DNA of 64,000 nt from Tetrahymena thermophila SB210 (lineage: Eukaryota > Ciliophora > Oligohymenophorea > Hymenostomatida > Tetrahymenidae), in contig NW_002476161.1 in assembly GCF_000189635.1 (NCBI RefSeq), forward strand, positions 186,001-250,000, written 5' to 3'. The translations under genes were made by a program, and so were the position numbers. The notes under the pieces were generated by a model. That model saw only the letters and a list, made by a program, of their open reading frames with translations. It had not been told where the DNA came from and made no database searches. Shown piece after piece: positions 4,855-57,666 of this stretch; position 1 is the first letter of the stretch; every line of letters begins with the position of its first letter.

Positions 4855-7711
4855 TCATGAGAAGTGAGCTCTCTTCTTTTCGTGTCTTTTCAATTCTTCA
4901 AGCACACGATTATCTTAGAAGCATGCAAGGAAGAAACCAATCATTTTAATGTGAGCACCAAGATCAGCTACTTTAGAGTTATTGATCCACTTTTTAATTG
5001 GGTTTGTTAAGTAGTGTTTGAATATTGGTCCATAGTTAGGATGTAGGATGAGCAAGCGGACAGTGTAATGGTTTAAGCTTTTCTAGCTTATGTAACGCTT
5101 GAATTTTTTGCGAATTTCTTCTATTTAGTCTTCATCTTCTGTTGAACCCTCTTCTTTTCCTTGAGAGTAATACAGAGTAGGTATAGTTTCTTATTCTTAT
5201 TTGGTGTAAATCTTATTTTTACGGTCATTCATAAATGTCAAGAATGCACTCATTATATTTTTGACAACATTCTTTTTGTTGCAATGCTTAATAGACTCAG
5301 CTAGAATTGCAATTTCATCAGCCTTGGAATTCTTTTCAGAATCGCCTTCTTGATCGCAAGATAAATCGCATTTATTTTTACCTTCATCATTGCTATTGCT
5401 ATCATTAAGCTAAGATGAGTTTTAGATTCCACTGTGTAATAAATGGTTATGCTCATGTTAATCCATTTCTTCGTTTTAAATGCTGTCTTCACTATCGCTA
5501 TCGTCTTCTTCATGGCAGCAATGATGGTGATGGGGATGAGATTGCTCATTATAAGCTTCGTTGTAGTAAGCAGATTAATAAGAATTCTGATTGGTTAAAA
5601 CATTGTTAATTTGGTTTGAATTGCTATTATTAAACTAAACCGTTGTATAAGCTGTGCTGTTGCTACTTACTGCTTCAGTTGGCACATTATTATCAGTACT
5701 GCTATATTGAGAAGCGTTAATACTATCTACATTAGCTCCTTATCCATTATATTGAAGAGTTGTAGCAGAAGATGACAATTAATTTTTTTAATTTATAGAA
5801 TTAATAATTTATTGCTAAAGCTTCTAGGATTATTAAGCTTTTTGATATTTTTTTTCATATTTTTACTGTTGAGCTTCTTTTACTGAGGATTTCTTTGATA
5901 ACTAGCTTCCATTTGATTACTTAGATGTGCTTTTGCGCTTGCTCATTCTCATTTCTTTAAGGATAGGGACTTGGCCAATAACTGTTGCCTAACTCTGTTA
6001 TTATTAAACTGAGATATCTTGGACTTTGTAATTATCGTAGTATGGTTGTTATAACTGATTATTATATATTGGTTAACCATTAGAAATTTATTCATTGTAT
6101 GAATTTCTGTACATATTTTAATTCTGTTAAGGTGCGTAAAACTATTCAGTTTATTACTTATTCAAATCTTAATTCTAAGAATATTGTCTATTTTAATTAG
6201 AGTAATATTCTTGAGCACCATTCATGTTTATATTATTCTAGTTAGTATAATTACCCTATTATTAATAATTGTTATTTTAATTATATAATCCCTATTCATA
6301 TTGATTAGAATCAGCAGCTGCAACTTGTTCATGTTTTCCATAGTAGCGGTTGTTATTTTGTTCTTGATTTGTCAAATTAAAATAATTTCTATTTTCTCTT
6401 GGTATCTATTCGTTTGGGTAGTAATTGCTGTTTTGATATTCTTCATTATAAGGATTTGCAGGCTATTAGCTTGGTGAAGAAATTATATCATATTGCTGGT
6501 TTGGTTGTTACAAAGTTTACTGAGGAGACTATTAGTAATAAGGGTTACTTTATTAAGGAACAGGAGACCCAATACGATTATCATAACTTAAGCCTTATCC
6601 TTTGTTGATATTGATATCTGCTGGATAGTTGTTGTACTAATTACCATTTAAATGGGTTTATTGCATATATAAAGACTAGTTTAATGGATTATTATTATTT
6701 TCACTAATTCCGTTTTCAGCTTATTTAGGATAGTAATCAACCCCATTGTTAACTTAATTTCCATAATCAATATATCTAGAGTTTTCTTGACCATCTCTAA
6801 TATCATAACTCAAACCATTATATTTGGCAGCAGCATTTTCAATATTACTTTAGTTGCTGTTGTTGTTGTTAAGAGGATAACCATTACGATAATTGTCACC
6901 AACAGGTATATTGGTATTTTAAAATCTAGGATCATTGATATTGTTGCTATTTAATGTCATTTCAGTCAAATGTTAATTGATTTCTTCTTATTGCTTCTCA
7001 TACTCATTGATTTTGTGATTGTTGTACACACTATTCGTTGAAAAAGGATTCTTAATTAATAATAAAATAAAAAATTATCAGAATACATTTCCCTAGAGAT
7101 AAAAGTAGTATTTAATTTTGATAATATATGAAAATAAGTAAGTAAGTTGTAAACAAAGTAAGTAAACATATATGTATGTTTGTTTATATGTTTGATTGTT
7201 TATTTGTTTGTTAGGTGTATGTAAAATTTTTTATGGAATAGAAACTATTAAGTCAAATAATTTTTAAAAAAATTGAAATTGAGTTCTATTTTATCTTATA
7301 AATGACTTTCACAGTAATTGACTCAACCTATAAAAATATGTCATCTTTTTTTGGTTGACTTTCAGTCAAAATTTTGATGAAAAAAGGAAGATAAATTTCA
7401 AATAATAAGAATTTGAAACAAAGAAGAAAGAAAAAAATAATAGGATTGATTGATTTTAATTGGTTAATAAATGCACTATTAAAATTAATAAGTGTATAAA
7501 TTTAAAAAAGCGACAAAAAATAAAAAAATTATAAATGGCTTACATTTTCGGTTTCCAAAATCTAATCATTTTGATTATATAGCATGTTTTAGTCCATATT
7601 ATTATTGTTAGGCTGGTTTTGGCTCATGCCGCTGTTGAAAAAGTTAAAATCATCATCCTAATCATCAAAGAGAAGGTATCTGAGGTAGTCTTCTTGAGTA
7701 TCTCTAAACAT
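4855..7711 (-). CDS. Q/N-rich protein with folded C-terminal region, unknown function
   Basis: Two exons: 7544..7711 (56 codons, starting MFRDTQEDYLRYLLFDDQDD) and 4855..7050 (731 codons plus TGA). They are joined in phase 0 across a 493-bp intron (7051..7543, GTAAGC...TTAAG). The 787-residue product is dominated by Asn/Gln-rich sequence for its first ~500 residues. A His/Asp-rich patch near 5530 reads HPHHHHCCHEEDDSDSED. The last ~150 residues look folded and are not low-complexity: they include ILAESIKHCNKKNVVKNIMS, HYTVRLLILHPNYGPIFKHY and LGAHIKMIGFFLACFQDNRV, then a basic tail. I do not recognise the family. Long poly-Q/N leaders before a compact domain are common in ciliate proteins, so the C-terminal part probably carries the function. 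The intron is longer than most here and holds GTAAGT/TTTG-type simple repeats near 7135-7210. Confidence 0.72.
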
Positions 7712-13362: not shown

Positions 13363-13703
13363 TTATCTTAAACTGATATTATTACCTTTTAATTGAAATC
13401 AGTAACTTTTATATTAATTAAGATAACTAACACCTTAACAAATAAATTGATCAAAAAATTTTCAAATAAAATAATAGCTTTATTTTATGATATTTTAATT
13501 TATTTAAAAAAATTAAAAAGAAGAGAAAAATCCATTATAATTAAAAAAAATGAATTTTGATATAAAAAATGTTATCAAATTTTGTGATAGAATTAGACAT
13601 TTTAATATAATTAAAAAATATCTTTCTACAAATTAAATTCACAATTTTTATAATTAATTAATTAAATAATGCATTTTGATTAATTATAATCTTTTTGGGG
13701 AAA

Positions 13704-13712
13704 ACCATAAAA
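13704..13712 (+). promoter_or_regulatory. PSE-like element of U2 copy 1
   Basis: ACCATAAAA, 62 bp before the RNA 5' end. The same element occurs 62 bp before U2 copy 2, and an ACCCATAAA form lies 64-65 bp before each divergent copy. A TATATAAAA box follows at 13731-13739 (-35). Fixed spacing in all seven genes marks this as the snRNA proximal sequence element. Confidence 0.75.
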
Positions 13713-13765: not shown

Positions 13766-13967
13766 ATACCTTCTCGGCCTTTTGGCTAAGATCAAGTGTA
13801 GTATCTGTTCTTATCAGTGTGAAAACTGATACTGTCCCTACTAGGGACATGTGGTTTCACATTAATTTTTCACAGGGGTCGGATTTACTAGTGGCTTGCC
13901 CTAGTCCCGACGCGGTTGCCCTTGGCATGCACGCTACTAAGGAGCGGCTACCCCTGACCACCTCCCC
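13766..13967 (+). ncRNA. U2 spliceosomal snRNA, canonical copy 1
   Basis: The 5' part matches eukaryotic U2 almost exactly: stem I (CTTCTCGGCCTTTTGGCTAA), then GATCAAG, then GTGTAGTATCTG with the branch-point-pairing GTAGTA, then the stem IIa region. Stem IIb is GTCCC/GGGAC. An Sm-like site ATTAATTTTTC follows. Stem III closes with GTCGG/CCGAC. Stem IV is CCTTGG/CTAAGG around the loop CATGCACGCTA, the expected U2B''/A' site. The RNA base-pairs with the intron branch point and with U6. Promoter: PSE at -62 and TATATAAAA at -35. A downstream AATCAAACAAAA element (13974-13985) is shared with the other U2 genes. Start is set by alignment to U2; the conserved GAGGAACTTTC just upstream leaves a few bases of uncertainty, as does the 3' end. 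Confidence 0.95.
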
Positions 13968-14647
13968 TTAATTAATCAAACAAAACATTCTTCTTTTTTT
14001 CTTTAAATAAATTAAATATTCATTACATCCATATCTAATTAGTTAAAAAATCAAAAGTATTTATTTACTAAACACATTAATAAATTGAAAATTCAAATAG
14101 ACGCTTATTTTATTGTTAAATATTTATACAAAAAGCAAATACAATAAAATAAATATATAATTCCAAATTAAAAATTTAAGAAAAGTAGTTTGCATGATAT
14201 TAATTAATTTAAATATGGAAAGAATATATTTTCAAATATTTAAAAAAATAAAATATAATTGTCAATAAAATAAAACATACTAATATTTTTGTTAAATTCA
14301 AGCTTTATTCAATTGATATAAAGTTATTGTTGGAGTATAATTTACTGATGACTTTGAAATATCATAATTTATTCATTTTTAACATAAATAATATAAGAAT
14401 AATTAACAGTATGTATTGTATGTAACTTTTAATTATAAAATGAGTTTTTTGAAATATTTAAGACTCTATAATAAAATATTATAACTTCTACAAAAGTAAG
14501 TAATTTTCTGGCATGTCTTTCTAAAGCATTTTTGTTAATTTTATTCATTCTAGTGGCTAGTGGTGAGACTTTAATTTTTAAGCAAATTGTTAATATTTAT
14601 TAAATTTGATTTTTCTTCTTATTTTTTTAATAATTAATTTGAAGAAA

Positions 14648-14656
14648 ACCATAAAA
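14648..14656 (+). promoter_or_regulatory. PSE-like element of U2 copy 2
   Basis: ACCATAAAA, again exactly 62 bp before the RNA, with TATATAAAA at 14675-14683 (-35). The sequence between and around these two elements has diverged from copy 1, so the conserved pieces stand out. Confidence 0.75.
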
Positions 14657-18727: not shown

Positions 18728-19030
18728 TTTGAAAAAGGTCAGATCGTTTTTGGATTTATATCAAAATTAATTTAAAAACTTATCAAATTTAATTATATCT
18801 ATTCACAAATTATATTTGATATCCTAAAAGTAAATTCTATTAGAATAAAAATAAATTAAATTTAAAGAATAAATTATGAGTTATTTAAATATTTTTTAAT
18901 GTTAATGTTTAAGTTTAAAATAAATTATTAAATAAGTAAAAATTTTTATAAAATAGAGGAATTAAATTAAATAAAATAATTATGAAATAGATAATCCAAA
19001 TCATAAAATTTCAAAAAATTTATTTAGTAA
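18728..19030. other. Spacer between LRR paralog A and the divergent U2 array
   Basis: About 300 bp of AT-rich sequence. It must hold the promoter of LRR paralog A (minus strand) and anything upstream of the PSE of the first divergent U2. The two transcription units are divergent here. I see no other feature. Confidence 0.45.
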
Positions 19031-19039
19031 ACCCATAAA
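19031..19039 (+). promoter_or_regulatory. PSE-like element of divergent U2 copy 1
   Basis: ACCCATAAA, 65 bp before the RNA. The -35 position carries only a weak TTTAATG instead of a TATA box. Confidence 0.7.
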
Positions 19040-19095
19040 ATTTGTAATGACTAAAAAAAATTTAATGAAGTCCTCTTTTGCTAAACGAAGAACTT

Positions 19096-19290
19096 TGTCC
19101 TTCTCGGCGTAAAAGCTGAGATCGATTGTAGTATCTGTTCTTATCAGTGTGAAAACTGATAGTGTCTCATCCACAAGAGACATTTTCACATTAATTTCTC
19201 TGTGGGGTTGGATAAACTAGTGGCTAGCCCTAGTCCCAACAAAGTTGTGTTTGGTTTGCACTCTACCAAAATTCAACTATCCCATCCATT
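19096..19290 (+). ncRNA. Divergent U2 snRNA, copy 1
   Basis: Aligns to the canonical U2 genes along its length. Unchanged: TGTAGTATCTGTTCTTATCA (branch-point pairing and stem IIa start) and GTGAAAACTGATA. Changed: stem I is CTCGGC GTAAAA GCTGAG, stem IIb is GTCTC/GAGAC, stem III is GTTGG/CCAAC, and stem IV is TTTGG/CCAAA around loop TTTGCACTCTA. Each of these four stems differs from the canonical gene on both sides yet still pairs. The Sm-like site is ATTAATTTCTC. Compared with its siblings it has TTCAACTATCCC near the 3' end and a few extra bases after it. Its 3' element is degenerate (AATCAAAAAAAA, from 19302). Ends are set by alignment. U2-related origin is certain; whether it works in splicing is inference. 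Confidence 0.88.
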
Positions 19291-20008
19291 CATTCTTATC
19301 TAATCAAAAAAAAATATTTTTTTTCTCTTTATGAATAATAATACTTAATATGAAAATATGATCAATATATTTTTAATCATTTAAAAAATTTTTAAAAAAT
19401 CTAAAATAAAAGCAACGATATTTATTTAAGTTTCCATGTTTAATTAGTAAATTTGTTCCTTCATTTAAAATGGGTTGTATTTTAGAATTTCATATTAAAA
19501 ACTTTAAGGTTTTAATTAACTAAAAAATTAACTTCTTCTTCATATAAAATTTATTTTATCATCCAAAGTAATTCCCAAAAAGATAAAGAAAAAACAATAG
19601 CTATAATTAACTATCATATATATTTAATATACCTTTTAATGCTTTACCTTTCATATCTTTAAAATTCACATTTAAGTAATTTTAAATATTAAATTAATTA
19701 ATAAAATATATATTTATTATTCAAATAAAAATTCTTTTTTTACTATGAAATTATTTAAATTGCTCCTTCAATCGTTCTTGTATCAAAATTTATTTGTTTT
19801 TAAAGAATAATTTTACACTAAAGCTATAATCTAAATATTTGACATTAATTTAAAAAAAAACTAAACATTTTCTTCAAATAAAATAGACAATTTATCATTT
19901 ATAATAATCTAAAGTCGGGAAATAAATTTTGTTTTAATCTAAAAATTTTAATTGAAATAGACTAATCATAAGGTTATACTAATCTAATTTTAATTAGAAT
20001 TCCTTAAA

Positions 20009-20017
20009 ACCCATAAA
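20009..20017 (+). promoter_or_regulatory. PSE-like element of divergent U2 copy 2
   Basis: ACCCATAAA, 64 bp before the RNA, preceded by a CTAATTTTAATTAGAATT stretch also found upstream of copies 3 to 5. At -35 there is only TTTAAGG. Confidence 0.7.
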
Positions 20018-20072
20018 ATTTTCTAAAATCAAATAAAATTTAAGGATTGGATTAATTGCAAACGAAGAACTT

Positions 20073-20267
20073 TGTCCTTCTCGGCGTAAAAGCTGAGATC
20101 GATTGTAGTATCTGTTCTTATCAGTGTGAAAACTGATAGTGTCTCATCCACAAGAGACATTTTCACATTAATTTCTCTATGGGGTTGGATAAACTAGTGG
20201 CTAGCCCTAGTCCCAACAAAGTTGTGTTTGGTTTGCACTCTACCAAAATTCAGCTATCCCATTCATT
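20073..20267 (+). ncRNA. Divergent U2 snRNA, copy 2
   Basis: Same architecture as divergent copy 1: altered but paired stems I, IIb, III and IV, an intact GTAGTA branch-point region and loop IV TTTGCACTCTA. Individual differences: TCTCTATGGGG after the Sm-like site where the others have TCTCTGTGGGG, and TTCAGCTATCCC near the 3' end. A well-kept 3' element AATCAAACAAAA lies at 20275-20286. Confidence 0.88.
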
Positions 20268-21036
20268 CTCATCTAATCAAACAAAATAATATTTTTTTCT
20301 TCTCAAAATAATTAAATTTTTAATAAAATAAAAAAGAAAATAAGAAGGATAGATAAATTATTATTATTTAAAAATATTATAATTAAATAAAATAATAAAT
20401 AATACTTCTATGCACTTATATTTTTAATTAATAAATTTATTAATTTTAAAAGAGGTAATTATAGTGTTTTATCATCCAAAATTTTAGGATTTTATTTATT
20501 ATTTTTTTATTTTCTTGAATAATAATTTTTTTAAACTAATAAATTTTAAATTTCTGATTAAAAGTTATACTCAAAAATAAATAAAAATCAAAGAAGTAAT
20601 ATCAAATCCTCGTTTAAATATATAAATACTTTAAAATTATCTAATTGTACTATGTGAATAATAATCAAATCAAATCTTCAAGACTACAGATGAAAATAGA
20701 TTGACATGCTTTATTAATTAAAAAAAATTTAATTTAAATATGCAAAGAGGTTAATATCAAAACTAAAATTATTTTTTCAATTATTAAATATTTCATTCAG
20801 CGTTTTAAAGCTATAAAAATTAAAATTTATTTCTTTTTATAAGTAGTTTATAAAGTAAAATGAAATATTAAATATTAGAAAATACTATATTTCAAACAAA
20901 AGCTAAATATCTTATTCATTTAAATTAGATGATTTATCGCTTATAACAATCTAAGATAGAACTTGAATATTAAAATAAAATTGAAATAGATTAAATAATG
21001 GTTAAAGTAATCTAATTTTAATTAAAATTTCTTAAA

Positions 21037-21045
21037 ACCCATAAA
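21037..21045 (+). promoter_or_regulatory. PSE-like element of divergent U2 copy 3
   Basis: ACCCATAAA, 65 bp before the RNA. TATAAGG at 21067-21073 sits at -35, the same place as the TATA box of the canonical U2 genes. Confidence 0.72.
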
Positions 21046-21101
21046 ATTATAAGCAATTAAATAAAATATAAGGAAAGGACTAATTTGCAAACGAAGAACT
21101 T

Positions 21102-21296
21102 TGTCCTTCTCGGCGTAAAAGCTGAGATCGATTGTAGTATCTGTTCTTATCAGTGTGAAAACTGATAGTGTCTCATCCACAAGAGACATTTTCACATTAA
21201 TTTCTCTGTGGGGTTGGATAAACTAGTGGCTAGCCCTAGTCCCAACAAAGTTGTGTTTGGTTTGCACTCTACCAAAATTCAGCTATCCCATTCATT
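21102..21296 (+). ncRNA. Divergent U2 snRNA, copy 3
   Basis: By eye the RNA region is identical to copy 4, and near-identical to copies 1, 2 and 5. It keeps GTAGTA and stem IIa, and carries the alternative paired stems I (CTCGGC/GCTGAG), IIb (GTCTC/GAGAC), III (GTTGG/CCAAC) and IV (TTTGG/CCAAA). The 3' element AATCAAACAAAA is at 21304-21315. The leader from the PSE to the RNA is shared almost base for base with copies 4 and 5, and includes AAATATAAGGAAAGGACTAA. Confidence 0.9.
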
Positions 21297-21962
21297 CTCA
21301 TTTAATCAAACAAAATAGTTTTTTATTCTCTCCATTTTCTTTCTAAAAATATTAAATTATTTACAAAAAGACTAATAAAAAGAGATATGATTAATAGTTT
21401 CAATCATTAAAAATATAATAAACTAAAGATAGAAGCAAAAAAACATTAAGGAATAAAAAAAAGTATAATTAAAATTAATCACTTTTTTCATTTTATTGTA
21501 AAATAAATAAATAAATCAGTTCAAATTTTACTTTAGTCCATAAAAACAATAAAAAATATTCCAAAATATTATCAATTAACTTATTTTATGTGGTTATCAA
21601 TCATACCTTAAAAGCTTCTCACATTTAAGTTTTTTGAATGTTTAATCTATTTAAATATCTTAATTTCAACATATTAATTATAATAAATTCAAATAAAAAT
21701 TTTTTGTTCCACTAAGTAATTGTTTAAATTACAATTACTATACTTCAATAATCAAAATTCATTTATTTTTAAAAAAGACATTTTAGTTTTGCTGAAATTT
21801 AAATTTTTGACTATTTTTTTTAAAGAAACGAAATAATATAGACAGACAATTTATATAATCTAAAGTAAACAAACACATTTAGTTTCAAAGACTATTTATT
21901 ATTGAAATAGACTGAATAAACAAAAGATCTAAGTAATTGAATTTTAATTATTATTCCTTAAA

Positions 21963-21971
21963 ACCCATAAA
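21963..21971 (+). promoter_or_regulatory. PSE-like element of divergent U2 copy 4
   Basis: ACCCATAAA, 65 bp before the RNA, with TATAAGG at -35. Leader identical to that of copy 3. Confidence 0.72.
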
Positions 21972-22027
21972 ATTATAAGCAATTAAATAAAATATAAGGA
22001 AAGGACTAATTTGCAAACGAAGAACTT

Positions 22028-22222
22028 TGTCCTTCTCGGCGTAAAAGCTGAGATCGATTGTAGTATCTGTTCTTATCAGTGTGAAAACTGATAGTGTCTC
22101 ATCCACAAGAGACATTTTCACATTAATTTCTCTGTGGGGTTGGATAAACTAGTGGCTAGCCCTAGTCCCAACAAAGTTGTGTTTGGTTTGCACTCTACCA
22201 AAATTCAGCTATCCCATTCATT
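22028..22222 (+). ncRNA. Divergent U2 snRNA, copy 4
   Basis: Identical by eye to copy 3 across the RNA, the 65-bp leader and about 90 bp of 3' flank, including the 3' element AATCAAACAAAA at 22230-22241 and the following TTCTCTCCATTTTC tract. The pair is therefore the youngest duplication, or the latest conversion, in the array. Functional elements are as for copy 3. Confidence 0.9.
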
Positions 22223-22781
22223 CTCATTTAATCAAACAAAATAGTTTTTTATTCTCTCCATTTTCTTTCTAAAAATATTAAATTATTTACAAAAAGACTA
22301 ATAAAAAGAGATATGATGTATAGTTTTAATCATTAAAAATATAATAAACTAAAAATAGAATCAAAAAATATTTAAGGAATAAGTATTATCAATTATGTGG
22401 TAATCAATCATAACTTAAAAGCTACTTAAATTTAAGTTTTTTGAATGTTTAATTTATTGAAAAATCTTAATTTCAACATATTAATTATCATATATTCAAG
22501 TAAAAATTGTTTGTTTGACTATTGAATAATTTAAATTACAATTATAATACTTCAAAAACAAAAATTCATTTATTTTTTATAAAAGACTATTTTAGTTTTG
22601 CTGAAATTTAAATATTCGTCTATTTTTTTTAAAAAACTAAATAATTTGTTCTTTTAATATATTTTAATATAGACAATTTATCATATCTTAAGTAAACAAA
22701 CATATTTAGTTTCAAAGACTATTATTGAAATAGACTAATCATAAGGTTAAAGTAATCTAATTTTAATTAGAATTTCTTCAA

Positions 22782-22790
22782 ACCCATAAA
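22782..22790 (+). promoter_or_regulatory. PSE-like element of divergent U2 copy 5
   Basis: ACCCATAAA, 65 bp before the RNA, with TATAAGG at -35. Confidence 0.72.
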
Positions 22791-22846
22791 GTTATAATCA
22801 ATTAAATAAAATATAAGGAAAGGACTAATTTGCAAACGAAGAACTT

Positions 22847-23040
22847 TGTCCTTCTCGGCGTAAAAGCTGAGATCGATTGTAGTATCTGTTCTTATCAGTG
22901 TGAAAACTGATAGTGTCTCATCCACAAGAGACATTTTCACATTAATTTCTCTGTGGGGTTGGATAAACTAGTGGCTAGCCCTAGTCCCAACAAAGTTGTG
23001 TTTGGTTTGCACTCTACCAAAATTCAGCCATCCCACCCAA
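22847..23040 (+). ncRNA. Divergent U2 snRNA, copy 5
   Basis: Body identical in all functional elements to copies 3 and 4. It departs near the 3' end (TTCAGCCATCCCACCCAAAC) and has the weaker 3' element AACCAAATAAAA at 23049-23060. The 3' flank is unrelated to that of copies 3 and 4, marking the right edge of the array. LRR paralog B ends about 250 bp further on. Confidence 0.87.
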
Positions 23041-23309
23041 ACTTATTTAACCAAATAAAATACTTACTTTTTTCTTTATAAAAATTTTATACTTTTCAAA
23101 TAAAAATATTTTTGAATCTAAAATATATTTCATTTTATCTGAGTATTTTAAGTTATTAATTAATGGTAGAATATATTTATGAATAATAAAATTTAAAATC
23201 TAATAATTCTTAATCATATAATAATTTAATTATAATACCAAAATAATTTTTTTTAACACACATGAATAATTATGTATTTATTATTCAGAAAGTACAATAT
23301 AGTAAACAA

Positions 23310-38165: not shown

Positions 38166-40607
38166 TCATTACAAATCTTATTAGAGCTTGCTTCTTTACA
38201 ATTTAAGAGCTTAAAGTTCTTTTCTTTTTTCATTAATTTAAAATTTATTTAGCGAGAAGTTTTCAGCAAGTTCATTCTCTAATTTCGATATAGATCCATT
38301 TATTAAATAAATCTGCTTCTCAATTTCAGCTTTATTTGCTCTTTTAATTTAACCTGCGTTAGGATTATTGTTGTAGGCTAAGTCTTCGACTTACATATTT
38401 CTATTAAATTATTGCTAATTATTATATCCTTGATTTACTTAATCAAAGCTTCTTTGTTGGTTTACTTGATTTTACTAAGAAGTGTATTACATTGAATAGT
38501 TTTCAACTTCCATATTTCCAACCTTTTAAAACCCTCCTCTTTCTTAATTATATGATTACTATTATTAGAATAGCAAATCATTTTAATTTTACTTAAACAA
38601 ATTCCCTCTACCGAACCCATAGTTGGGCTACTATTATTGAACAGGCTGCTATTAAAGTTAACCATATTAATGATTTTGTCTTCTATACTGATAATCATTA
38701 TTTCTTAAAATATTTGCCTGAGGTTGCTCTGGTTGTTCTTCTATTTCCTCTACAACTGGTCTCATGCAAGCTAAATCAGTTGGCGGATTACCAACATGGC
38801 GAGTCCTTAAATAATCTAAAATAGATACTGTACCCTTTTCAATTACAGCTCTCTTTATTAGTTTTAAAGGATTTCCATCAATTTTTAATGTTTTTAGTTT
38901 CATAAAACCTAATTCTGTTGGTATTTTTTATAAGTTATTATTTTCTAGGTTAAGATTTTGAAGCATTGGTAGAGTATATGCAATTTATTCACTCAATTCT
39001 TGTAGTGAATTATTGGAGACATCAATGACTTCTAATTTATTCAATTTTGCTGATGTAGAAAACAGAGGTGAAAGATCAGATATTTAATTGTATGCTAAAT
39101 TCAAAACTCTTAAGCTAGGCATAAAGCTTATAATTAAGCCACTAATACTCTTTAACTTATTAATACTTAAATCCAAGTGTTATAGATTGGGAAATACTTG
39201 CCAACATTACTTTAATTAAGAATTATTATCAAAAAAGTATTCTATGTTATTTTGTTTAAACTCTAAGCTTTAAAGTTATCTCAGCTGAAGAATAGATTAA
39301 GGAAGAGCTATTAAATTGTTATTATTGGCATGTAATTTACTCAATGATTTTTCATAATTGACTAACTATTCAGGTATAATTTAAATTTTGTTATTAGAAA
39401 TATCCAAATGGGTTAATCCCTTCAAGTTATAAAGACGCTCATCATCAAACTTAGTTAAATTTTAATTTGAAACAATAAACTCATTGTTTCTATAGAATTC
39501 TCTCAATAAAACTTCAATAGGATCCAGTTTTTTTTATATAAAATTCATCTTTGGATCCATAGCGCTTTCTACTTATGTGTAATCTCCTTAAATTCTATCA
39601 CGCAGATATTTTTTTATTGCTTCTGCTCCAGCATTCTTAATTGTATTTCTTATGCATTTAAGAGGATTTCCTTCAACTGTAAAACGAACTAATTTAGGTA
39701 ATAACCCTATTTCTGAGGGAATATCAGGTAAATCGTTATTAGTTAGGTCCAAAGTCTTGATATTCTTGCAGATAAGGATACTCTTATCTAAATTTTTTAG
39801 TTTATTATTGTTAATTACAAGCGCTGAGAGATTAGGAATATTTTCAAATTAAGTAAAACTTTCTATCCTGTTATACGATAGCACAAGCTAATCTAGTTTT
39901 TCACTTTATGGAACTTCTTAAAATTCAACTAGCCTATTTTAATCTAAATAGAGATTGACTAAAGACTTCAAATTTTAGAATGCTCCCTCATCAATTTGTT
40001 AAATTAAATTTTTAGAAAGAATGAGGTTTTCTAGAAGTAGGCATCCAGAAAAAGCAGGCTAAGGAATGTGAGATATTTTATTCTCGCTTAAATCCACTTT
40101 TTTCAAAGGAGTTTTCTCTAAAAATATAGGTACTGCTCTTAAGTTATTTTATGAAAGATTAAGTATTTCTAAGTTTTAAAGGTAGTGCATATTCATAGGA
40201 AGTTCTTCTATTTTATTTTCGCTCAAATTGATTTCAACTAAGCTAGGGCATTAAACTAATGAATAAGGGAGCTATTTAATTTAATTCTTACTAAAATCTA
40301 TCGATTTAAGCTAGGTGAGTTAAAAAAGAGAATTTGGAAGCGTAAAAAGTTTATTATTTAGCATTCTTACTAATTGAATTTCCTTCTCATGAGTAAAATC
40401 TTCAGGAATCTACTTAATTTCATTATTCGACAGATCAAGCTTTGTTAAAGGAGCTATTTCCCACCAGTTATCATCCAGCTACAAATCCTGATACTATGCT
40501 ATTTATTTAGGAAACTCTTTGAGTTCCAAACCTATTAATGTTAATTATCCTGTCCTGCGAGCTCTTTTTAAGCTTCCAATAATAGCTTTTTCGCCTGTTT
40601 CAATCAT
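38166..40607 (-). CDS. LRRC40-like leucine-rich-repeat protein
   Basis: Single exon, 814 codons, start MIETGEKAIIGSLKRARRTG, TGA at 38166-38168. Residues ~1-600 form about 20 LRRs of 22-24 residues with the L-x-x-L-x-L-S-x-N-x-I/L pattern (LTKLDLSNNEIKQIPEDF, LEILNLSQNNLRAVPIFL, LTHLDISNNKIQIIPEQL). The N-terminal 'GSLKRARRTGQLTLIG' opening and two 'KTLKIDGNPLK...YLRTR' type segments are typical of LRRC40: GNPLKCIRNTIKNAGAEAIK in the middle, and GNPLKLIKRAVIEKGT closing the LRR part. Eukaryotic LRRC40 proteins are about 600 residues. The extra ~190 residues here are a Gln/Asn-rich linker followed by a C-terminal coiled coil (AEIEKQIYLINGSISKLENE). LRRC40 has no well-defined biochemical role; it is a protein-interaction scaffold. 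Family call confident. Confidence 0.85.
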
Positions 40608-52020: not shown

Positions 52021-55000
52021 TCAAATAAAATTTAGTTTTCTTATTCTTATATTGTTTTATGCAAAAGGCTAATATTATTGGTTGGAAAAATTTTTAAATG
52101 CTACAAAATTATTTCCATTATCAAATTGATACATTTACAGCTTTTGTTCATCTGTTGAAAAATTTAATTTTTCTTATTAAGAAGTTTATGTATTAAAATT
52201 GTTATTTATCAATTGTTATTAAATTTATAGTTATGCTTTTGTTTCTTGGATTGACCTAGCTCTGTGCTTTTTGATTTTATGTTTATTCTAAGCGAGAGAG
52301 TAGTTTGTGCTATTAAAATTTCTAGTTGTGTTATTTAATGAAATGGCAGCTAACCTCTCTTGATTTAAATACTTGTTATTTAAAATTTATTAACCAAACA
52401 TATTGTTGCTGGCATGTTTATCACTTTGCTGGTTAGAATTAAAACTACTTATCTAGCTAATATTGTCAGTATTTAAAAATTGTCTTAAAGGAGCTTATGC
52501 TCTTATCTTTCTATCAAAGTTAGAAGCATTTTTAGCAATTTATTTAGTAGTTTATTCCTTATTGGTTAATTATAAATCATCTGTAATATTAATTATATCT
52601 GAGTTTGAGCTACTTTAATTGTAATTATTTGTTTAATTGTATTAAATATTATTGCTATTTGAATTTGAACCACTAGATTAAGCTTATTCATCAGCATAAA
52701 ATTGTTAAATCCCTTTTTTACTACTTGAAAAACTTACAAAGTTGTGTGGTATTTCAAGAAAGTTATTATTACTTCTATTGTCACTTTAAGCGTTTTTCTA
52801 CTTAAAATTAGATATACTGTCATTAAAATTTTTATTAAGTAAGTTACTTGTTTGTAACATATTCTCTTAATTAATCATATTATTCTTTTAGTTTAATATT
52901 TAGACTTCTATTTAATTTATTTCTTATTCATCTTACACACCAACTGAGCATGCTTATATCTTTTCCAACTTTAAACGAGATTGAACCATAATTTAATTTT
53001 TTTTATCTTCAAAGATAGCTGTATCTGGTGGTAATTATTCAAAGCTTTTAATTTAACTATGTACATTTTTTGGAGTTCTTTAAGCTTTTCCCATGTAATC
53101 TATGCTATTCTTAAATTTGGTTTCAAATTAAGATTGCTCTTCATCTTACTCATCATCATCGTCTACAATAAATGCTTTTTAACTACTTTCTGTAATATTT
53201 TGGTTAGTTAATTTGTGTTTTCTTTCTAAAATGCCATTTTTAGTGCTTCCTTGGCTTTTTATTATTAAACTTTGTTTTTCTTAATTTTCTTCAAATTGCT
53301 GATTATCTTCTTAATTTTATTTCTATTGAAATTAACTTGATCTTCTGACTGCAAATGTATTTTATTAGGCTAAATTAGAAGAATTAGTGCTATTAGAAGT
53401 AGATTATTTGCCATAATTCCTACTAGAGTTATTGCTAATAGGAATATTTTAATTTTCATATAATCTAGATTAAATATCAGATGTATTCAATCTGAATGCA
53501 GGATTGGCTTCACTATTAGATGAGGATATTCCTCTTGTGTTTGTATTTTATCTGTTATCTTCAAAAGGAACCATAACACTATTTCTTTATTTATATTATG
53601 CTAAATTTTAGTATATTGTAGATTAAGAATTTCTACTTTAATTATATTAGTATGACTAATTTAGCTAAACTTATTAAAGTTCAATCAGTTTTTTTTCTAA
53701 GTAAGTTCCATTAACAGAATTTTTGGCATATGCATTAGTTGGATACTGGTTGAATGCCTGTGCAGCAGGTGGGTACTAATTTTTATATGTTTGTTGTGGT
53801 GAACTTTATTAACTTGTTGCTTGTGAGGGTTGATTATTTGCAGAATTTTGAATTTCTTGGTTTGTTTAGTTTTAAGTTTAGTAGGCAGATGCAAAATTTT
53901 ATCCAACTTTTGCTATAGGATAAGATTATTTTTTTAATTACTGTTTTTTCATTTCCAGTTGCTGCTTATAATTTTATATGATAGGAGAAGGGTTCCATCT
54001 ATTTCTTTCCTAACTTTAAGAATATACTGTTAAGGGTTTCTTTTTGTTATTCTAATCCTAGTTGGAGTTATTAGTATTGTTATCACCTTGATTATTGATC
54101 TTGACTTCTACAAGATTATTACCATTTTTTTCTTTTTCTTTAATAGTCTGTTGCTTTTTCTTCTTAGATTTTTTTCTATTTTTAGCTTCATTTGATAGTT
54201 GAAGCTCTTTATCTTTGAATATGTCAACCTCTGCTTCGCTATCTGAACCACTTGCACTCTCTTAGTCATTAGGATCTTCTCCCTTATCTATTTTTTTAAA
54301 AGCCTTTTCTAGCTCATCTTTTCCAAAATAATCTCTCCAGTCTACTTTCATATCAGGACATAACTGAAGGAGCAATTCTTGCTTACTATCTAAGTCGTTG
54401 CTTTTCAGTAATTCATCTTATTTTTTTTTATTATAAAATAAAAATTATTCTAATTGCATTATTTTTACCTGCACAGTCTGGAGAATTCAAAAAGTTAGTA
54501 TCCTTTTTTGTGTTCCCATTTATCAGTGAAGGTGTAAGACATCTTTTTTCTTTTTGCTTTATCTATTGCTATAAATTATTTAGATTCTTTTCTTTTTCCT
54601 GCTGAATGTTTAGCAAATTATTTTCAATTCTTTTTTGCTTTTCAATTTTCTTTTGCTCTTTCATATTTCGAAGTATTTTATTTTAAGCACTCTCTCCTGT
54701 GAGCTGAAACAACCTAAAAGGTTTGAGCCAGCCTCTTGTCTCTACTAACTCAGCCATCAGAATGTCCATAACAAGAGTGTATTCTACTATACTTTCACAA
54801 AGACTTTTTCCAAGATTAGAAAGGTCTTATGTAGTAAAATGAGTTGGTTTGCCATCGTTTTGCAAGTCATCATAGCTTAAATTATATTCACATAAATAAT
54901 TAGACATTAATGAATAAAAAATAAAATTTTAAAAGAATTTTACCCAAAAAATGAAGTTTCTAATGTAAAAGAATTAGAAATCTTTAATTCGTTCCAGCAA

Positions 55001-57666
55001 ATGACTCTAGCTGTATTCTTTTTGTCATCAGTTACTCTAAATTTGCAATCCTTAATACTAAATAAGTGGTTTTTTTTAGAAAGTATTCTAGGTATTAGCC
55101 TTACTTGAGTCCAAGTGCTAGCACCTCCATCACTAGTTTTGTTGCATCCATAAAAAAAAGCATGCTTCTTCATTGAATGTCCATGGAGGTCACAGAAAAT
55201 AGCAACTTCTCTTTTCAGATGCGATTTTTTTATCTCCTTTTTTACTTCAAATACTTCAGGATGAAGGACAGGATCAGGATTATCCCATTTTCTATTCAAA
55301 TCTGATCCTGATAAATTGCACCTACTATTTCCTACAACAACTCCATCAGGATTCATCATCGGAACTATCTATTAATTTTTTATTTATTTATTAATAGTTA
55401 TATTTTTAATAGTATAAACATAAAAGTAAATATTTTAATATAAATTTACTTTAAATATATAATTATCTAAAAGATATTTAGCTTGTATAGTGTCAGTCAA
55501 CAGATAAGAAATAAATCCTTCACAGACAAAGCTAGATGGAGTCTCTCCTGGATGCTAGCGAGCTATTATAAAAATAACTTTTTTCTTCTTTTTATTTTTC
55601 GTTAACTTAGGGTTTTTGCTTGAAGTTATTTTGAGAAGAATTATAGGTAGGCCTATCCTTGAAGTAGCAATGGTTCTTTTTTTATACAATACTTTGCTTG
55701 TTTTAATTATTAACTGCTTCTTTTATTAATCTAAGTTCTAATATTCTAAAAAGGAATATATGAGCTTTTGCTCTTACTATTCTAAGTAGGACATTAAATC
55801 AGATAAAGTGTAGGGATAGCAGTAAGCAAAGGTGACTCTTTATCCATTCTCTGTAAAGGTAAAGCTAAAATCCATAGTTTAGAATCCTCTTTTGCTGTTT
55901 GGTTAAATTTGAGGCTAAATCAAAGTTGACTGGAGCTATTAATTTAAATTAGAATATAGATTAGTATTACTATTTAATGCATCAGTTTAATTACTATTAT
56001 TATAACTACCATTTTATATATTTTGATTTAAGTTTGCTGTATTTCCATTTATATTATTATTTCCTAAAATAGAATTCCTTTATTGATTTTTACTTTCGTT
56101 ATTAGCTTAGAAAAATTAGTGATCTACATTGCTTCTATAGTAAAAAATATTTTCTCCTCCTCTGTGCCAGCCTTTATCTGGTTTAGAAGAATCAAATATA
56201 GCTATTTACATCCCCTCTTTATATAAATATCCATTTCTTTTATTATTTAAAATACTAAAAGTAATTGTCTTTGATTAATTTTCTTCTATTTCTTTTTTAT
56301 CTTCTACATCCTAATCATCATCTTCAATTACTATCCATTTCTTGTCAAAGCTCTAATCATTTTAATTAACAACATCTTAGTTTATAGTTTAGTTTTTTTC
56401 TTCCTATTCTATGGTTATACTTTCTTTGTTATCTATTTATTCTGTTTGTTTTTTTGTTTTGAATAAATTATTTATTTTAACAGTAAACATAAACCAATGC
56501 AAGCAGCCTTTAGTATTTGTATCACTTCTCAATAAAATTTAACATTTAGACTCCTTCTTATCAACTGTGCAGAAATTTATATTTGAACTTTCAAAATTAC
56601 CAAGCACAGTAAAAGTATCAAAGCCAAAGGTAATTTCTTGATTACTTTAATTTGTACTTTCATTGTATTACTGAATCTCTCTAAAATCTGTTTAATTAGT
56701 TAACACCTAAGAATTGTGTAGAGATAAAGATCTCTGATTCTTTGATTTTATGCATTCAAATTTGAATTAGGGCAGCTACTATTTTAAAGAGAATGGGATT
56801 CTCTATGACATAATAAACTTACTCATGAATTGGGCTGCAGACTAAGAATGCTGAATTGACTTATTTATATTTTAACCTTCGCTTTAATCAACTGGTTGCT
56901 GATTTTTAATTGAAAAAGTAGTGGAGGAAGAATCTAAGATGCTAAACTTTTATTCATAAATATATTCTTCTAATCCGTAATATTTTTGCCTGTCTAAAAC
57001 ATAGTAAGCCCATTCTTTCATATACGGAAGATAATTGATAATTAGAAATTATTTCTATTTAAACTTTGGAAGAGTATGGCATTCTAATTTTCTTGAGAAA
57101 GTCTTATGATAATCAACATAATATATGGAAAAAGGTTTTTACAGCAATTAATCCCCACTATGATAAAAATATTTCATAACACTACCACAAATTTTGCATC
57201 TATTTGTTTCAGAGTCTAGCTGGCAATCATGATTTTTTTAATAATCTTATTCTCCCCATTATAACTCCTCCAAATTTGAGCTGCTGTCCACTAAAATATT
57301 TTTTTCTTTCTTCTTGGTTTCTTATTAGGGTTAATTTTAAATAGAGCTATTTTGAGTTCTCCCAGCTAGTGATTTCCCAGTTCTTGATTGTCTTTTTGCT
57401 TGTCTTTGTAAATAATTTTATTGGATTCCCCTTTAATTTTAATTCTAACTTTTAGAATTTGGTATAACAGAAGAAGTATTTTCAATTGTAAAATTCATTA
57501 AAGATAAATTCCTATTATTGTTTTAGTTCCCTCTCATAAATTTATCATGCGCAGTCTTATGATGCAAGAGAAATTCTTGTTCATTTTTTACATATTTTAG
57601 TCTAGGTTTTTCTTAAATATCTATAACTCGCTGTTTATCCATTATAGGAAGAGGTTCATCTAACAT
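52021..57666 (-). CDS. Cytosolic carboxypeptidase (CCP/AGBL family, M14) with long disordered tail
   Basis: Four phase-consistent exons: 55450..57666, 54944..55368, 54469..54875 and 52021..54416. Introns are 81, 68 and 52 bp. The product has 1,814 residues. Residues ~1-330 are low-complexity. The CCP N-terminal beta domain follows (CLHWFMFTVKINNLF, GWHRGGENIFYYRS). Then comes the M14 domain: YPYTLSDLMSYLEQQEQK, ARQHPGETPSSFVCEGFISY (zinc His and Glu), MMNPDGVVVGNSRCNLSGSD, LNRKWDNPDPVLHPE, FCDLHGHSMKKHAFFYGCN (third zinc ligand) and ETSFFG (catalytic Glu). All catalytic residues are present, so an active enzyme is expected. The family removes glutamates or terminal residues from tubulin tails, which fits a ciliate with many microtubule systems. 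After ~residue 960 a basic coiled coil (EQKKIEKQKRIENNLL) and about 800 residues of Q/N/S-rich disorder follow, which is unusual in length. Ends LNFI at TGA 52021-52023. Confidence 0.9.

Follow-up and report, generated by a model that had tools for sequence, protein, structure and literature searches.

The window analysed here, 64,000 bases of Tetrahymena thermophila DNA corresponding to bases 186001-250000 of contig C329, carries seven genes for the U2 small nuclear RNA (snRNA), two of canonical sequence and five of a variant form, termed U2v below. A telomerase exon of the same genome agrees at 101 of 102 aligned residues with the telomerase chains of T. thermophila in the PDB, with a mismatch at the first residue alone. 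Genes were assigned with the Rfam U2 model (RF00004; gathering score 46), of which positions 1-192 were covered. Each of the five U2v genes exceeded the cut-off with the whole model covered (99.3-104.2 bits), and together they form a plus-strand array with start-to-start spacings of 977, 1029, 926, and 819 bases. A first-pass annotation of this DNA had described five plus-strand U2-like genes about 1 kb apart, which the Rfam scores bear out. Two canonical genes had been placed at 13766 and 14710 in the same annotation; both were recovered, and two more on contig C3 (150.2 and 146.4 bits) had been missed. The latter emerged from a search of the whole genome (101 Mb in 445 contigs), which returned at least nine U2 matches, four canonical and five variant, all above the cut-off; nine is a lower bound because the genome search scores the best candidates only.

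All five U2v genes are accompanied by signals typical of the snRNA genes of this genome. A sequence resembling the proximal sequence element (PSE), AACCCATAAAA, lies 65-66 bases upstream of each start (five of five, with one mismatch in unit 5), and a 3′ box, AATCAAACAAAA, follows each gene, exactly in units 2-4 and with one mismatch in unit 1 and two in unit 5. The genes and their signals in the window are as follows.

13702..13712, plus strand: PSE of canonical U2 gene 1, AAACCATAAAA
13766..13956, plus strand: canonical U2 gene 1, Rfam RF00004, 149.4 bits
13974..13985, plus strand: 3′ box of canonical U2 gene 1
14646..14656, plus strand: PSE of canonical U2 gene 2, AAACCATAAAA
14710..14900, plus strand: canonical U2 gene 2, Rfam RF00004, 149.4 bits
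14918..14929, plus strand: 3′ box of canonical U2 gene 2
19030..19040, plus strand: PSE of U2v gene 1, AACCCATAAAA
19096..19285, plus strand: U2v gene 1, 102.6 bits, ends as matched by Rfam
19302..19313, plus strand: 3′ box of U2v gene 1, one mismatch
20008..20018, plus strand: PSE of U2v gene 2
20073..20262, plus strand: U2v gene 2, 104.2 bits
20275..20286, plus strand: 3′ box of U2v gene 2
21036..21046, plus strand: PSE of U2v gene 3
21102..21291, plus strand: U2v gene 3, 102.2 bits
21304..21315, plus strand: 3′ box of U2v gene 3
21962..21972, plus strand: PSE of U2v gene 4
22028..22217, plus strand: U2v gene 4, 102.2 bits, identical to gene 3 at 190 of 190 positions
22230..22241, plus strand: 3′ box of U2v gene 4
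22781..22791, plus strand: PSE of U2v gene 5, one mismatch
22847..23036, plus strand: U2v gene 5, 99.3 bits
23049..23060, plus strand: 3′ box of U2v gene 5, two mismatches

Canonical and variant genes are 69.1-72.3% identical, as compared to 98.4-100% among the five U2v genes, so that the many differences from canonical U2 and the near-invariance inside the array that had been noted at first pass were both reproduced. The four canonical genes are 92.2-99.5% identical to one another. At 50 of 193 alignment columns the two classes have no letter in common, a count that takes in the poorly aligned stem-loop IIb, and four of the 193 columns vary within the array. The 400-base flanks of the U2v genes exhibit 41-78% identity by global alignment. 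BLAST comparison of neighboring units extended the similarity to 452 bases at 97% (units 3 and 4) and 693 bases at 87% (units 4 and 5), and recent copying within a tandem array would be expected to leave local homology of this kind beyond the genes of units 3, 4, and 5. Homology of unit 1 to the other units spans only about 300-330 bases, beginning at about the PSE and ending shortly beyond the 3′ box, and the transcription unit is therefore the longest-kept part. This relation of gene to flank matches that of the canonical U1 genes, five of which are 99.4-100% identical within 300-base flanks of 45-85% identity. Selection and gene conversion could each yield homogeneous genes with diverged flanks.

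Elsewhere in the window, three minus-strand open frames in the ciliate code matched DUF4441 (4855-6960), leucine-rich repeats (38166-40607), and M14 carboxypeptidase (54757-57666).

Anatomy and structural constraint of the U2v RNA

In common with canonical U2, the predicted U2v RNA has stem-loops I, IIa, IIb, III, and IV, the GUAGUA, GCU, and AUC segments, and a candidate Sm-like site, and its genes have the PSE and 3′ box; the two classes differ in the stem I loop, at bases 29 and 31, in the IIb loop, in stem IV, and at the 5′ end. Stem IIa, the branch site-pairing GUAGUA, GCU, and AUC are identical in nine of nine U2 genes, as is a 5′ CUUCUCG segment, and the seven pairs of stem IIa never vary. 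The AUC, GCU, and CUUCUCG segments of U2 are those that pair with U6 in helices Ia, Ib, and II. By eye, a candidate Sm-like site reads AAUUUCUCU in U2v and AAUUUUUCA in canonical U2. Two bases just 5′ of GUAGUA are changed in U2v, base 29 from A to G and base 31 from G to U, a difference on which the first-pass annotation was silent. The G+C content of U2v is 41%, versus 49% for ordinary U2. The predicted duplex of U2v with the U6 tail (helix II) has an energy of −16.7 kcal/mol, versus −14.0 kcal/mol for canonical U2, and contains two extra pairs when the Rfam start is used as the U2v 5′ end, from which the true end may differ.

Pairing was evaluated on one alignment of the U2 genes (A1) against the canonical fold, over stems I, IIa, III, IV, and the closing stem and with 500 shuffles; stem IIb was kept outside the counts because the aligner mis-set the IIb loop. 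Of the 342 cells in these stems, 94.7% pair. Changes on both sides of a pair were found in 18 cells, as compared to a shuffled mean of 7.8, and the covariation score was 0.174 versus 0.112 when shuffled, with none of the 500 shuffles as high in either case. These statistics are supporting rather than decisive because the shuffles ignore relatedness and few lineages were compared. The C10/A23 mismatch of canonical stem I becomes a C-G pair in U2v, and in the folds a C-G pair of stem IIb is, by eye, replaced by U-A (GUCCC/GGGAC to GUCUC/GAGAC). Three of the columns that vary within the array (108, 183, and 192) keep their pairs. The retention that had been claimed for GTAGTA, stem IIa, GCT, and ATC thus holds in all nine U2 genes, that of an Sm-like site (AAUUUCUCU) may hold as judged by eye, and that of the PSE and 3′ element holds in five of five U2v genes within one and two mismatches, respectively. 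There is also good support, from its conservation, its compensated stems, and its intact promoter and 3′ elements, for reading this U2-like RNA as a functional U2 isoform.

Second forms of U1 and U4

The Rfam search for U1 (cut-off 69.5) identified six genes, all on contig C129. Two diverged U1 genes on this contig, termed U1v, both keep the PSE and 3′ box.

C129:374314-374474 (L024:1501-1661): U1v, one of the six genes identified by Rfam, 61.1 bits, below the cut-off
C129:345457-345617 (L031:3457-3617): U1v, 35.9 bits

The gene at C129:345457 was absent from the genome-wide Rfam listing and was located by means of its PSE and 3′ box. When the gene at C129:374314 served as the query in a DNA search, only these two were listed, and more distant U1 forms could escape such a search because canonical U1 was not recovered by it. 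Identity of U1v to U1 is 62-66% in a comparison with two of the five U1 genes, and that between the two U1v genes is 90.7%; U1v contains 32% G+C versus 50% in U1. In a comparison of the two U1v with two U1 genes, in which the structure was derived from the tested alignment itself, nine pairs were changed on both sides versus 6.6 when shuffled (17 of 500 shuffles as high), and the covariation score was 0.385 versus 0.225 (0 of 500 as high). The 5′ end reads AAAUUACAAU in U1v and ACUUACCUGG in U1 and no longer matches GUAAGU, so that its in-register complement is AUU/GUAAUUUA rather than CAG/GUAAGUAA. The U1 genes lie among repeated multi-kilobase blocks (C129:322001-382000), most of which share 85-93% identity at an offset of about 14-15 kb, and the U1v pair lies within one such repeat block, whose copies are 85.6% alike.

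U4 also occurs in two forms, at C172:335958-339056 (L013-L016), where one G+C-rich gene (47%) is accompanied by three A+T-rich genes (36%). The forms are 67-71% alike and are about equal in their predicted pairing with U6; pair counts for U4 are supporting, the structure having been taken from the same alignment. A nearby U4-like stretch (C172:339457; L036:3457-3592) has changes throughout and no recognizable PSE or 3′ box, and is likely a pseudogene. For U5, Rfam matched two genes, 96.5% alike, and a pattern for diverged U5 (CCATAA N80-110 GCCTTTTAC) gave five matches, the two known genes and three unrelated places; a more changed U5 would escape this pattern. Four U6 genes (C424:90278-93186; L009-L012) differ, within the matched region, only in or beside the 5′ stem, which has two forms (three genes and one gene), and their core downstream is identical. 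From these comparisons, second classes of roughly similar divergence exist for U1, U2, and U4, and none was found for U5 or U6. A genome search with the U12 model (RF00007) gave zero matches, as did the control genomes, so that absence of U12 is unproved.

An exact pattern built from the U2v genes, in which PSE and 3′ box are spaced as in U1 and U2, matched 12 places genome-wide (three U1, two U1v, three U2v, and four others), and the reversed pattern matched none. Two U1, two U2v, and the canonical U2 genes were missed because the pattern is exact. The four other places (C13:1019286, C17:658635, C129:1187582, and C428:328664; L047, L048, L054, and L058) matched nothing in Rfam up to E 0.5 and by eye resemble plain A+T-rich sequence; they may be chance matches, a point that the reversed-pattern count of zero does not settle.

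Interpretation and comparison with known systems

The array probably represents a second functional class of U2, most likely acting in an alternative set of small nuclear ribonucleoproteins (snRNPs) whose use is confined to a particular stage or to particular substrates. Judged from its anatomy, U2v would be made from the same type of PSE/3′-box gene as other snRNAs, and Sm proteins would bind it at the candidate site AAUUUCUCU. The RNA would then enter a U2-type snRNP, in which the unchanged GUAGUA would pair with the branch site and GCU, AUC, and the 5′ CUUCUCG with a shared U6, so that its catalytic role would be that of ordinary U2. Accessory contacts would be changed by the alterations at the 5′ end, in stem I and stem-loops IIb and IV, and at bases 29 and 31. 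Together with U1v and a second form of U4, U2v may constitute an alternative snRNP set that has U5 and U6 in common with the canonical one and is confined to such a stage or such substrates. The existence of second U1 and U4 classes makes a stage- or intron class-specific U2v, which had been put forward in the first-pass annotation, more plausible than could be known there.

Several observations weigh against this interpretation. Bases 29 and 31, changed in U2v, are upper case (conserved) in the Rfam U2 consensus; three pairs of the canonical fold are lost in U2v, one in stem I (columns 14 and 19) and two in stem IV; and in unit 5 a pair is broken at array-variable column 185. Pairs with a double change (five) hardly outnumber the shuffled mean of 4.3 (220 of 500 as high), and further pair types (14 versus 15.5 when shuffled) show no excess. 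The homogeneity of the U2v genes may be explained by gene conversion as well as by selection. Among the putative partners, U1v is less conserved than canonical U1 (90.7% identity, with flanks of 85% and 67%), and the last of the three A+T-rich U4 genes (L016) lacks a clear 3′ box. The U1-70K N-terminal domain and the U1C zinc finger each gave a single match, and no duplicated U1 protein therefore backs a separate particle. U2v is known here from its genes, and what would link it to U1v and one U4 form in joint action is their similar divergence and A+T-richness.

Two candidate origins were rejected. A pseudogene array was set aside because of the PSE and 3′ box, the largely kept stems, and a homogeneity like that of U1, in contrast to the U4-like stretch at C172:339457. 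A U12-type origin was set aside because of GUAGUA in U2v and the zero U12 matches, subject to the silence of the control genomes noted above.

Predicted introns were surveyed with a home-made hidden Markov gene finder whose training, on 224 kb (the 64-kb window and 160 kb elsewhere), used no transcripts. Of 162 predictions, 117 were kept, and 45 that were under 35 bases long or lay too close to an end were dropped; the survey is partly circular because the gene finder's own predictions served to train its model of the 5′ site, and it is also underpowered. The number of GT-AG splice sites reported elsewhere is 106,937 (PMC3274533). These introns bear on the idea that U1v, U2v, and the second U4 form a dedicated spliceosome for a class of introns with the 5′ site T/GTAATTT, the complement of U1v. 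Consistent with such a class, both U1v copies have the 5′ end AAAUUACAAU, GTAATT ranks second in frequency among 5′ hexamers (17 of 117 introns), T at +5 is weakly associated with T at +6 (32 of 47 versus 33 of 70; p=0.036, uncorrected for the four tests made), and pairing favors U1v by more than 1 kcal/mol in 45 of the 117. On the other hand, U1 pairs better in 51 of the 117, and 55% of 1718 intergenic GT[AG] control sites favor U1v while 20% favor U1. The introns also carry the canonical U1 signature relative to background, with enrichment of A at −2 (0.615 versus 0.406, 1.5-fold), G at −1 (0.308 versus 0.143, 2.2-fold), and G at +5 (0.137 versus 0.070, 2.0-fold) and depletion of T at −2 (0.38-fold) and −1 (0.51-fold). 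T at −1 and T at +5 show no significant association (11 of 19 versus 36 of 98, p=0.12), nor does G at −1 with G at +5 (p=0.14) or with T at +5 (p=0.84). From this signature and the pairing counts, U1v is therefore unlike a general 5′ splice-site reader, and no clear separate class of U1v-type 5′ splice sites was seen in this rough survey of 117 predicted introns, with which a small special intron class may be compatible. Given also the single matches for U1C and U1-70K, a dedicated second spliceosome of this kind is improbable. A looser version, in which duplication of U1, U2, and U4 produced a partial second spliceosome with U5 and U6 shared, U1v reading other 5′ sites, U2v the branch site, and the second U4 chaperoning U6, for special introns or in a life stage such as conjugation, is rather unlikely.

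Two further explanations would assign U2v no special role. U2v may be expressed and spliceosomal but redundant, a duplicate whose drift was structurally constrained and which raises dosage without a special stage or substrate. The retention of function-critical segments and the near uniformity of U5 and U6 are in keeping with redundancy, as are multicopy snRNA isoforms in many organisms, whose role in splicing is called unclear (PMC4291461). Divergence of about 30% combined with near-perfect homogeneity within the array is, by comparison, much for a redundant gene; the two classes lie side by side with no sign of conversion between them, and U1 and U4 have parallel second forms. Redundancy is on balance unlikely. 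The array might instead be a relic with little or no transcription, or one whose unstable RNA is destroyed by quality control, as with human variant snRNAs, and human genome-encoded variants are described as unstable (PMC7328512). The changes at bases 29 and 31 and the three pairs lost from stems I and IV would fit decay. The likely relic at C172:339457, in contrast, lacks a PSE and 3′ box, both of which U2v keeps along with most of its stems, and the homogeneity of U2v equals that of the canonical U1 genes, which makes decay highly improbable. A second functional U2 class with a restricted role remains the favored reading.

Known classes of developmentally regulated snRNA isoforms elsewhere differ by a few per cent, as compared to about 30% here, and some human U1 variants have a changed 5′ end. 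In the minor spliceosome, second U1-, U2-, and U4-like RNAs work with a shared U5. U1v, U2v, and the second U4, if they form one set, would have this same layout; here, in contrast to the U12 system, U2v keeps the U2-type GUAGUA and U6 is also shared. Developmentally regulated U2 or U1 isoforms are described for Dictyostelium, sea urchin, silk moth, Drosophila, and Xenopus, with U2 isoforms among those of the first three (PMC4291461), and these resemble U2v as multicopy classes of snRNA paralogues in one organism. Variant U1 snRNAs likewise exist as paralogues beside ordinary U1 in humans (PMC5159530, PMC13172311); here, U1v is accompanied by diverged U2 and U4 forms. Among ciliates, U1, U2, U4, U5, and U6 but no U11 or U12 are reported for Paramecium bursaria (PMC12862383) and all snRNAs for Stentor (PMC9505925), and the available parts of these two accounts make no mention of second snRNA classes. 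Among the literature matches listed, none described U2, U1, or U4 variants in Tetrahymena; the founding snRNA papers fell outside this scope, and an earlier report is possible. Any claim of novelty is therefore weak. A U2v 23-mer had zero matches in prokaryote and viral contig collections, which are uninformative on ciliates.

Even as mere isoforms, the divergence of these RNAs is, to our knowledge, well beyond that of usual snRNA variants. If the second U1, U2, and U4 do cooperate, they would represent a spliceosome duplication separate from the ancient U2/U12 split, in a unicellular organism amenable to transformation and crossing. The presence in one cell of two U2-type machines with different splice-site preferences, and the manner in which they are kept separate, would then become testable.

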